This document shows, one piece after another, positions 2,681 through 39,734 of a DNA stretch of 64,000 bases. Position numbers and translations under genes: made by a program. The first letter of the stretch is position 1. Every line of letters starts with the position of its first letter. This DNA comes from Synergistaceae bacterium (GTDB taxonomy: Bacteria > Synergistota > Synergistia > Synergistales > Aminobacteriaceae). The stretch lies in contig JAFSSM010000032.1 in the NCBI GenBank assembly GCA_017451025.1, positions 1-64,000 on the forward strand, written 5' to 3'. The notes beneath the pieces were generated by a model that was not told where the DNA came from, made no database searches, and saw only the letters and a list, made by a program, of their open reading frames with translations.

Positions 2681-4621
2681 ATGAACACTAAGCGTTTTTT
2701 GGCGGCATTTGTTGTTTTCTGCGCGGTTTGCCTTGTCGGTTCTACGTGTTTTGCGCAAGGGGGGGGGGGGCATAAAATATTACGTTAAGACCCCTCAAAA
2801 CGGAGGCAGCGACTCTAACGACGGGTTGAGCTGGAACACTGCATTTGCAACATTCGGCCGCGCAATAGAAGCTGCATCATCAGGAGATGAGATTAACGCG
2901 GCGGCAGGCACTTACTACGAAAACCTTACCATTCCGAAGAAACTATCACTTTATGGCGGCTATCCTGCTTCTGGCGGGGACGAAAGAAACTTCACGAACA
3001 ATCCCACAAAAATTGACGGCAATGAAACTGACAGCGTTATAACTATTGAGGCACAGGCGGCAATAGATGCTTTCATCATCGCTAACGGCAGAGCTGAATG
3101 CAAAGATGAAGGCGATGGCGGCGGCGGAATTTCTGTCAAGGATACAGACAGCGTCACAATAACCAACTGCACAATAATCAACAATTCATCAATTGGAGCA
3201 GCTAATTTCAGCAATGGCGGAGGGCTGTATATCTATAATTGCAACGATGCTTCAATCATCGGGTGTACATTTTCGGGCAATTCTGCAGAGGGTTATGGAG
3301 GAGGAGTGTACCTTATTTCCTGCGATAAATTTTATGTAAGCGGCTGCACTTTTTCGGAAAATTCTGCCAGCGCGGACGGAGGAGCTATTCGCGGACGCAG
3401 ATTAACCGTCATTACACTCAAAGATAGTTCATTCTCGGGAAATGCAGCACATGAAGGCGGAGGAATTTGTTCTGAAGGAAATATTGCGCTTGCTAACTGC
3501 ACATTCTCTCAAAATTTGTCCCAAAATGACGGCGGAGCTGTTTATGCTTCAGGAAATCTTGAGGCTGTTGATTGCAGATTTTCCAAAAATACCTCAAATT
3601 TTGGTGCTGGAGCTGTTAAGGTTTTAGGGAATAATTTTACGGCGACTAACTGCACATTCTCCGAGAATACAGCAAAATTTGCAGGCGGAGCTATTGATGA
3701 CTATAGAGAAACCGTAAGCATAGTTACAAATTGTGCGTTCACGAAAAATTCTGCAGATGACAGCGGCGGAGCTATCAGTGCTTCGGGAAATTTCGCGGTT
3801 AATGAATGCACATTCTCTAAAAATTTTTCCAAAGAGGGCGGCGGTGCTGTAAGTAATCATGGCACAATTGCAATCACAAACTGCACATTCACGGAAAACT
3901 CTACGAATGATGACGGCGGAGCAATTTCTGACTACAATAACATTACGGTCAATAACTGCACATTTGCAGAAAATTCCGCAAAGAATCATGGTAAAGAAAT
4001 TCGTTTCACAATATTCACGAAGTATGCTGAACTAAACAACTCAATCATCTGGAACAATCAGGGCAAGTATATAGATGTGGATATAGTTTTTGACGTAGAG
4101 GATGAGAAGCGGCAGTTAATCATCAACAATTGTGCATTGAAGCGTGATGCGTTTGAAGATTTTGAGGCAGATAGCAATTTCCAGAACAATAATCCTGTTT
4201 ACATCGAAAATTTTGCGTCAAGACATCAAGTTTCTAACGTTACTGTTAGCAGTGTGACCACAAAGTTTTTTTGCTCAATGCGAGCGATACAGCCTTAATT
4301 AATGGAGGCACAAGCAAAAATGTTCCAGAAAAGGACCAGCTTGGAAAATCACGTAACACACAGAAGCCAAGTATAGGAGCAGTTGAATACTCTTCAGGCT
4401 CAGGCGATAACCCGGCACCCGACAGCGGGAACACAACTCCCGGTGCTCCGAGCAATGAGGACAACAGCAACACAACCCCAGAAACTCCGAGCGATGATAA
4501 CAACGGCAACACAACCCCAGGCACTCCAGACAGCGGAAACACTGTCGGAGGAGGCGGAGGCTGTAATTCATTTTGCAGTCTGCTCAACCTTGCAATACTC
4601 TTCACATTAAAACGCAGATAA
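2681..4621 (+). CDS. Pmp-like beta-helix surface protein, interrupted at a G12 tract and a T7 run
   Basis: The true start is the ATG at 2681 (good RBS), encoding a 26-residue signal peptide ending CFAQ. Right after it a run of 12 G throws the frame off and the signal-peptide frame stops within six codons. With 11 G the frame continues into a long right-handed beta-helix of repeats such as TNCTFSENSA and DDGGAI, like chlamydial Pmp proteins and other secreted parallel beta-helix proteins. A second break lies at T7 (4266-4272); one more T joins the helix to a Thr/Pro/Asn linker and a Synergist-CTERM tail (Gly-rich, Cys, hydrophobic segment, KRR). The restored product is 646 residues. As sequenced, neither the full nor the anchored form is made. 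This is either a phase-variable locus in the OFF state with an extra mutation, a pseudogene, or homopolymer assembly error. Confidence 0.8.
2759..2770 (+). repeat. Homopolymeric G12 tract at the signal peptide cleavage site
   Basis: Twelve consecutive G. As written the signal-peptide frame ends in HKILR-stop. Removal of one G (or addition of two) joins signal peptide and mature protein in frame through a Gly4 stretch. Tracts of this length are typical sites of slipped-strand mispairing. Confidence 0.9.
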
Positions 4622-31439: not shown

Positions 31440-31943
31440 CTACCTCACGAATAGAGCTACTTTACCGTCTCCACCGTCGTAAACGTTCGCCGTCTTGTTG
31501 TAAGTACCAGCCTGCGTGTCAGCCGGAGCTTTTAACAGCCCTATCGACTTCGCACGTCCCTTGAGCTTGCTTCTGATACCAGTCTTCTCCGTCTCTGATC
31601 CCTGCACATCGTATGTTACGTACCACTCGCCTCCGGCTGTTATGATTGCATCGTAGCCTGGCTCATTGAGCTTTTTATCGTCGGTAAGGTACTTTGCAAT
31701 ATCCCCGCTGAAGCCAGAGGGTTTTGTGGTGTTCGTCAGATTGCTGACGTAGTCCATGCTGTCCACGTAATACGCCAGTGCCGCCGTCTTCAGGTTGCGC
31801 AAGTTGCTCACAACGTTGCTCGCCTTCGCACTCGTTACTGCCTCCGTGCTCGACATCATCATCATTGCCGACAAAATGCCGATTACCACGATTACTATCA
31901 ACAGCTCCACAAGCGTGAAGCCCTTACGCTTAATACTCTTCAT
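31440..31943 (-). CDS. Type IV pilin, probable major pilin
   Basis: A 167-residue prepilin with leader MKSIKRKG, cleavage before FTLVELLIVIVVIGIL and conserved Glu5. The globular part contains LRNLKTAALAYYVDSMD and a GGEWYVTYDVQG strand. It lacks a cysteine pair for a C-terminal disulfide loop. It follows pilC and has AGGAGG and its own candidate promoter carrying a C11 tract (32048-32081), so it can be expressed apart from the pilB-pilT-pilC genes. A terminator directly downstream fits a highly expressed single gene. Confidence 0.92.
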   Translation of the reverse strand: MKSIKRKGFTLVELLIVIVVIGILSAMMMMSSTEAVTSAKASNVVSNLRNLKTAALAYYVDSMDYVSNLTNTTKPSGFSGDIAKYLTDDKKLNEPGYDAIITAGGEWYVTYDVQGSETEKTGIRSKLKGRAKSIGLLKAPADTQAGTYNKTANVYDGGDGKVALFVR

Positions 31944-32047: not shown

Positions 32048-32081
32048 ATTATACTACTCAAAACTACTTAGGGGGGGGGGG
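32048..32081 (-). promoter_or_regulatory. Pilin promoter with a C11 tract at the -35 position
   Basis: On the minus strand a perfect -10 TATAAT (32048-32053) is preceded by 17 bp and then by eleven consecutive C (32071-32081), which occupy the place of the -35 box. TTTTG flanks the tract on the far side. The distance from -10 to the pilin ATG is about 105 nt. A change in tract length would move the flanking TTTTG relative to the -10 and could switch or tune transcription. Confidence 0.6.
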
Positions 32082-38782: not shown

Positions 38783-38820
38783 AAAATTTCCCCTCAGTTC
38801 AGGACTGGGGGGGAAATTTT
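38783..38820. terminator. Terminator between hisS and the glycosyltransferase gene
   Basis: A long hairpin AAAATTTCCCC..AGT / ACT..GGGGAAATTTT around a short loop, closing with A/T on both sides, so it can act in both directions. The leftward glycosyltransferase stop (38819) overlaps its right edge. Confidence 0.8.
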
Positions 38821-39734
38821 ATTCTAAGTAGCTTCTGATGATGTGCGACATAAAACTTGACGGCAATGTTTCATTCAACGACGCGGTTTTCCAGACTAGT
38901 TTATGGATGCTGCTTACTTCCTCGAAATATTTCATGCGTTCTTCAGAGTAAACCTCATCATTTTGTATAGCACGGTGAAGTGCGAATGCATTTTCATGAG
39001 GAACAAAAGGCATATTATGCAATTCGTCTTTATACAGTTCTGCCGCTATATTGGCCAGCTTCCTGTACATAAAGTAGTGAATCAGGAAGTTATGCTTCTT
39101 CCAGTAAGCAAAATGCAAATCCCTTATAACCTGAAGTATATGACTGCCAGGATCAGAAACCATGAACCAGTTAGAGACTGATATATCGGTTTCACTATAG
39201 CGAAAAAAGAACAGCGGTAGATGCATAAGGTATTCATAATTGCGCCCGGTGCACAAAACGGTAGAGTCAATCCATGTTCCTCCGTGTTCAATCAATAACT
39301 GAAGCCTCACAATATCGCTGTAATGTGTGTGAGAGATTATGCCTTTCTCGTGTTTCCTGTCGATGTAGTCGGGAAGAGTTACCCACTGTTGAAGGTTATT
39401 TTTGTCGAGGGTGATAATTTCCTTGTCGGGATGCCAGCGTCTCAGCGATGCCAGGCAGGCCTTGCAAATGTCAGGAGCTTCGTCAACTCCCTGATACCAG
39501 AACCACCAGATGACGTTTTTATGCCCCCCCCCCCCCCTGTAATTTGTACTTATCCTTGAGTGCGTAAACAAGACTACCGTATTTGCGGCGAAGATACCAA
39601 TCCGTGAACCTATTGCCCATTCTGTTGAAAGCAGGTACAAAGCTGAATACCTTCCGCGTCAAATCCCAATATCTGCCTTCAGCTATCATCCTCTTTGCTT
39701 TACTGAGATACAGCATAAATTTCTGTACAGTCAT
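38819..39734 (-). CDS. Capsular-polysaccharide-type glycosyltransferase interrupted by a G14 tract
   Basis: The gene starts at the ATG at 39734 (MTVQKFMLYLSKAKRM). After 66 codons a run of 14 G (minus strand) puts the ribosome into a frame that stops within five codons. With 13 G the frame continues through Gly4-His-Lys into IWWFWYQGVDEAPDICKACL, SHTHYSDIVRLQLLIEHGGTWIDST and a C-terminal helix-rich region, giving a 304-residue protein of the capsular polysaccharide synthesis/GT32-like family. The SDIVRLQLLIEHGG stretch is the donor-binding signature. The tract separates a basic N-terminal region from the catalytic domain. As sequenced the enzyme is OFF. An internal start in the catalytic part is not supported by a clear RBS. 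Confidence 0.82.
39524..39537 (-). repeat. Homopolymeric G14 tract (C14 on plus) in the glycosyltransferase gene
   Basis: Fourteen C on the plus strand, the longest homopolymer seen in the window. Loss of one G (or gain of two) opens the full glycosyltransferase frame; the present length stops translation directly after the tract. Confidence 0.9.

Follow-up and report, generated by a model that had tools for sequence, protein, structure and literature searches.

The question raised by this stretch of DNA, 64,000 nucleotides from an uncultured Synergistaceae bacterium (the window), is why the coding sequence of a surface-type glycosyltransferase should be divided by a run of 14 G residues, and whether that run is an error, a lesion or a switch. 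The features of the locus, all on the minus strand, are the following.

39524..39537, minus strand (C14 on the plus strand): G14 tract, candidate switch, read directly; tracts of G8–G15 stand at the same place in relatives
39540..39734, minus strand: open frame of 65 codons beginning with the ATG at 39734, encoding the N-terminal half of the glycosyltransferase
38819..39523, minus strand: 234 codons and a stop, encoding the catalytic half of the enzyme; PF05704 Caps_synth (E 2.8e-61), PF04488 (3e-5)

A glycosyltransferase gene divided by a poly-G tract

The original prediction that the tract divides the gene and is one G too long agrees with direct reading, which gives exactly C14 on the plus strand. 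The first G of the tract belongs to a CAG codon that follows the 65 N-terminal codons, and the frame arithmetic confirms that removal of one G rejoins the halves exactly: with 13 Gs the 65 codons, Q, GGGG and the 234 catalytic codons form a single frame of 304 residues, while the 14 Gs of the assembly lead to an early end at KLQGGGGA-stop, after about 71 codons.

In a family profile search the catalytic half scored 207.8 bits for Caps_synth (PF05704) against a curated cut-off of 24.5, matching positions 48–277 of the 278 in the profile, with a weaker match to the DXD-sugar-binding family PF04488. The N-terminal half alone (65 codons) had no family match in the profile scan; it ends in a [RK]KYxxF motif common to relatives. 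Comparison of the catalytic half with its homologue in a related genome (G005) gave differences per codon position of 0.33, 0.23 and 0.61, and coding constraint, judged from these sequences, is acting on this half. The description of the enzyme as capsule-type carries over as the name of the PF05704 family and no further, and a capsule role is putative. The divided gene stands alone, with no obvious capsule cluster around it; its neighbours are an upstream gene that we take to be spermidine-synthase-like and an adjoining tRNA-synthetase-like gene.

We consider the G14 tract to be, very probably, a phase-variable (contingency) locus operating by slipped-strand mispairing. Replication slippage would add or remove Gs and thereby generate mixed tract lengths within one population. 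One length class in three would yield the full 304-residue Caps_synth glycosyltransferase (ON) and the other classes would stop soon after the tract (OFF), the assembled G14 being an OFF allele. We infer that slippage is reversible and that switching would randomly alter a surface glycan. The locus would be one of several dozen switches in the genome, the majority of them acting on translation inside glycan genes and a minority on transcription, by altering the distance between two promoter boxes. An alternative TTG start at 39640 lies in frame with the catalytic half, and the OFF state may be leaky or may produce a different N-terminus.

Two further tracts occur in the window.

2681..4298, plus strand: split beta-helix surface protein gene, a 26-codon signal-peptide part and 508 codons
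2759..2770, plus strand: G12 tract immediately following the signal-peptide part of this beta-helix/Chlam_PMP surface protein (PF13229, PF02415); one G fewer joins the frames
32071..32081, minus strand: intergenic G11 tract (C11 on the strand of the gene) preceding a prepilin-like gene, from sequence reading
31440..31943, minus strand: prepilin-like gene (N_methyl, PF07963, 2.9e-8), likely target of the third tract

Two surface loci with the same type of tract, both off by +1, had been proposed for the window. Both are indeed present, since the frames of the beta-helix gene also join when its G12 loses one G, but the number of tracts is three, the G11 upstream of the pilin-like gene having been overlooked. 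This tract separates a T2SSF gene from the prepilin-like gene, the order being T2SSE, T2SSE and T2SSF (36331–32098) followed by the prepilin-like gene. A TATAAT hexamer lies at 32048–32053, 17 bases after the tract (spacing by eye), and no clear −35 box was found on its far side; a promoter role is suggested for the tract.

The same locus in related species

Homologues of the divided gene were searched for within the genus, in 43 genomes. The closest have a run of Gs at the corresponding point, directly before a WWxWxQG-type motif. In four of them, from other species, the run is in frame (G9 in G005; G11 in G016, G038 and G031), and in three it is out of frame (G10 in G019, G15 in G041 and G8 in a paralogue from G031), as it is in the window's own allele. 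The occurrence of G8–G15 at one point, both in and out of frame, points to a tract whose position is conserved but whose length and phase are not. Similar behaviour is seen in a second gene: a GT6 gene (PF03414, contig 20) has G10 in the window's genome and G9 in G005, out of frame in both, and tract-free GT6 homologues read uninterrupted across the tract point. With the catalytic half as the query no relatives were found in the named genomes, and there was none by sequence among the solved structures.

In the homologue from G025 (L093) the tract has decayed to GGGGGGAGGGG and a stop codon is present; further relatives have an open frame with no tract. An interrupted tract with a stop is what lends some weight to the idea that the window's gene is a pseudogene, broken by an insertion in the G run and now decaying. 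We regard this as very improbable, given that both halves are open, that the catalytic half keeps its coding constraint, that four of the orthologous tracts are in frame and that the same pattern recurs in dozens of genes. Long homopolymers can also slip during transcription, and programmed slippage, transcriptional or ribosomal, could in principle restore the full-length enzyme from the G run as it stands. The tracts, however, bear no fixed frame relation, the homologues differing in both tract length and phase, and the promoter-spacer tracts described below are beyond the reach of such a mechanism, so that we give it equally little credence.

The tract repertoire of the genome

Enrichment of long G or C runs over the whole genome, with a bias towards surface genes, had been put forward as a check on the switch, and both were found. 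The window's genome contains 59 G/C runs of at least 9 against about 4 expected by chance, and 44 of at least 12 against about 0.04, the expectation being derived from shorter runs in the window. General inflation of homopolymers by the assembly is ruled out by the A/T runs of at least 9, which number just 7. The distribution of run lengths is humped at 10–16 with no steady decay, its mode being 12 and its maximum 19 away from contig ends.

By a fixed rule (at least 25 codons on each side of the tract and a summed span of at least 130), 35 tracts are intragenic. All 35 have G on the coding strand, 26 are out of frame as assembled, and their phases (9/15/11) do not differ from equal thirds. A LicD gene was added by eye, and so was a NeuB-like gene whose coding strand carries poly-C. 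Family scans of the tract-bearing genes returned a predominance of glycan enzymes: Caps_synth, GT2, GT4, GT6, GT11, LicD, FkbM methyltransferases and a sugar-nucleotide epimerase, and, in the same mostly-glycan list, GNAT, hexapeptide and membrane acyltransferases and ATP-grasp enzymes. The remaining targets are two beta-helix surface proteins, radical SAM enzymes, KAS III/AMP-ligase enzymes and a GHKL kinase. Tracts are present in 4 of the 23 GT2 genes (odds ratio about 10, P 0.0014, with background gene counts estimated and a gene total of 2150 assumed). The picture was replicated in G005, which has 49 runs, 22 of them intragenic with phases 4/7/11.

These counts bear on the simplest objection, namely that the tract is real, its true length open and the gene stably ON, the OFF state being an assembly or sequencing error. 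Homopolymers are error-prone, two-colour sequencing may generate false Gs, and the length of 14 could itself be an assembly error, as assembled lengths in general could be wrong by one base. Contig ends have six tracts within 60 bases of them, where 0.19 would be expected, and three of these are at the very end: contigs C25, C46 and C52 of the window's genome start or stop within poly-G (G23, G14 and G17), which may mean that the assembly broke at the tracts or that two-colour sequencing added false Gs. The six near-end tracts are perhaps artefacts of assembly or base calling and are better omitted from the count; the genome has about 55–59 such runs. Length error is nevertheless an improbable explanation, because 26 of the 35 tracts inside genes are out of frame and the phases are nearly equal, the same holds in the second genome, and a run of 13–14 Gs whose position is conserved is unlike ordinary coding sequence, whatever its exact length.

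The tracts not classed as intragenic point to a second, smaller class of candidate switches. Of 51 such tracts in the window's genome and G005 taken together, 10 are flanked by −35 and −10 boxes (consensus TTGACA and TATAAT) with at most 2 mismatches in 12 positions, as against 1 of 57 intragenic ones; for this count of near-perfect pairs P was 0.002 with a threshold picked after the scores had been seen, and promoter-box scores ranked over all tracts gave a non-significant P of 0.13. A perfect pair of boxes surrounds a G15 in one case, in G005. In the window's genome TTGACA-G13-ATAGGG-TAGAAT is the clearest case; it precedes the gene for a likely lipoprotein. In Neisseria poly-G/C switches are found both in genes and between the −35 and −10 boxes; this tract and the perfect pair in G005 resemble the latter, and may affect transcription. 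We propose that this minority class would act on transcription through box spacing.

Several individual loci deserve mention. At 222164–228224 of contig C7 (L011) four poly-G tracts lie within about 6 kb, all out of frame as assembled, in genes for KAS III, an AMP-ligase, KAS III and a hexapeptide-transferase; is this a combinatorially switched biosynthetic cluster? A G12 (L042:3005–3040; C50:27025) stands at the junction of two consecutive large genes, the second of which encodes a hybrid histidine kinase, and the GHKL kinase gene carries a G16 (C34:9170); sensor kinases may also be switched. Tandem radical SAM genes, 73% identical (L016:2294–4653), have a G12 at the same codon in each. A G11 (L039:8964–8975; C40:43464) is situated about 50 bases upstream of a gene for a flagellin-N/VWA protein. 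Two genes, for an amino-acid permease (L030, near 3159) and a ribulose-phosphate epimerase (L048, near 3428), have a tract close to the 3′ end.

Distribution in Synergistota and relation to known systems

All 43 genomes of the genus, most of them assembled from metagenomes, have one or more runs of at least 9; with a cut-off of G10 the number per genome is 0–58 over its 43 species. With 58 runs of G10 or longer the window's genome is the highest of 188 Synergistota genomes. Other genera have mostly 0–8 such runs, with a few exceptions of up to 45; two genomes outside the genus, G159 and G076, have 45 and 24, and may have gained the trait independently. MutS was found in 43 of 43 genus genomes and MutL in 39 of 43, the window's genome having both. 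Mismatch-repair loss is thereby ruled out as the cause, and the proposed slippage is not accounted for by it.

The genus apparently comes from ruminant guts. Relatives traced through the neighbour that we read as spermidine-synthase-like are Synergistaceae assemblies mainly from the gut of goat, sheep, deer and reindeer, and the same gene leads to a cultured relative, Fretibacterium fastidiosum. As a cultured model this species is a poor match, with few and short runs: there are 6, five of them of just 9 Gs, and at least one lies in frame within a gene that we take to be valyl-tRNA-synthetase-like. A G11 in a gene that is, on our own reading, methyltransferase-like is a possible candidate switch.

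Close parallels are found in Campylobacter and Helicobacter. In the Campylobacter phasome (PhasomeIt, PMC6321876) poly-G/C tracts dominate, are mostly genic with G on the coding strand (5% are poly-C there), and affect transferases for capsule, LOS and flagella; for one data set the paper discusses proportions of ON genes close to those under neutral drift. The Synergistaceae repertoire shares the dominance of poly-G, the coding-strand G and the surface transferases. It differs in its host, an uncultured member of Synergistota, in the presence of MutS and MutL, and in its longer tracts, with a mode of 12 and lengths of up to 19 away from contig ends compared with a peak at 9–10. In Helicobacter canadensis (PMC2823697) G8–G17 tracts are located in genes, in promoters and near 3′ ends, the targets including glycosyltransferases, methyltransferases and an acetyl-CoA synthetase. 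All three positions are also represented here, the 3′-end tracts of the permease and epimerase genes resembling the C-terminal switching of that species, although the H. canadensis length range comes from read data and ours from assemblies. The agreement in make-up with Campylobacter and H. canadensis indicates that the proposed switch is of an already known kind.

The mechanism is thus not new; the novelty would seem to lie in a repertoire that extends through a genus of uncultured Synergistaceae. Among open-licence full texts, no on-topic paper was found for phase variation together with Synergistetes, Synergistota or Fretibacterium. The apparent restriction of multi-locus phase variation to pathogens was described as an open question in a 2025 review (PMC11868660). 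In our opinion an uncultured, apparently non-pathogenic gut genus of Synergistaceae probably possesses, in its richest species, some 50 independent poly-G switches per genome, translational as well as promoter-spacer, including a four-switch biosynthetic cluster and histidine kinases. One practical consequence is a warning that gene calls and ON/OFF states at these loci are unreliable in such assemblies. The 43 species, with 0–58 runs of G10 or longer, form a natural series in which the drivers of such repertoires (phage, immunity, niche) may be sought, and a full phasome in such a genus, if true, would argue against phase-variable-rich genomes being confined to pathogens.
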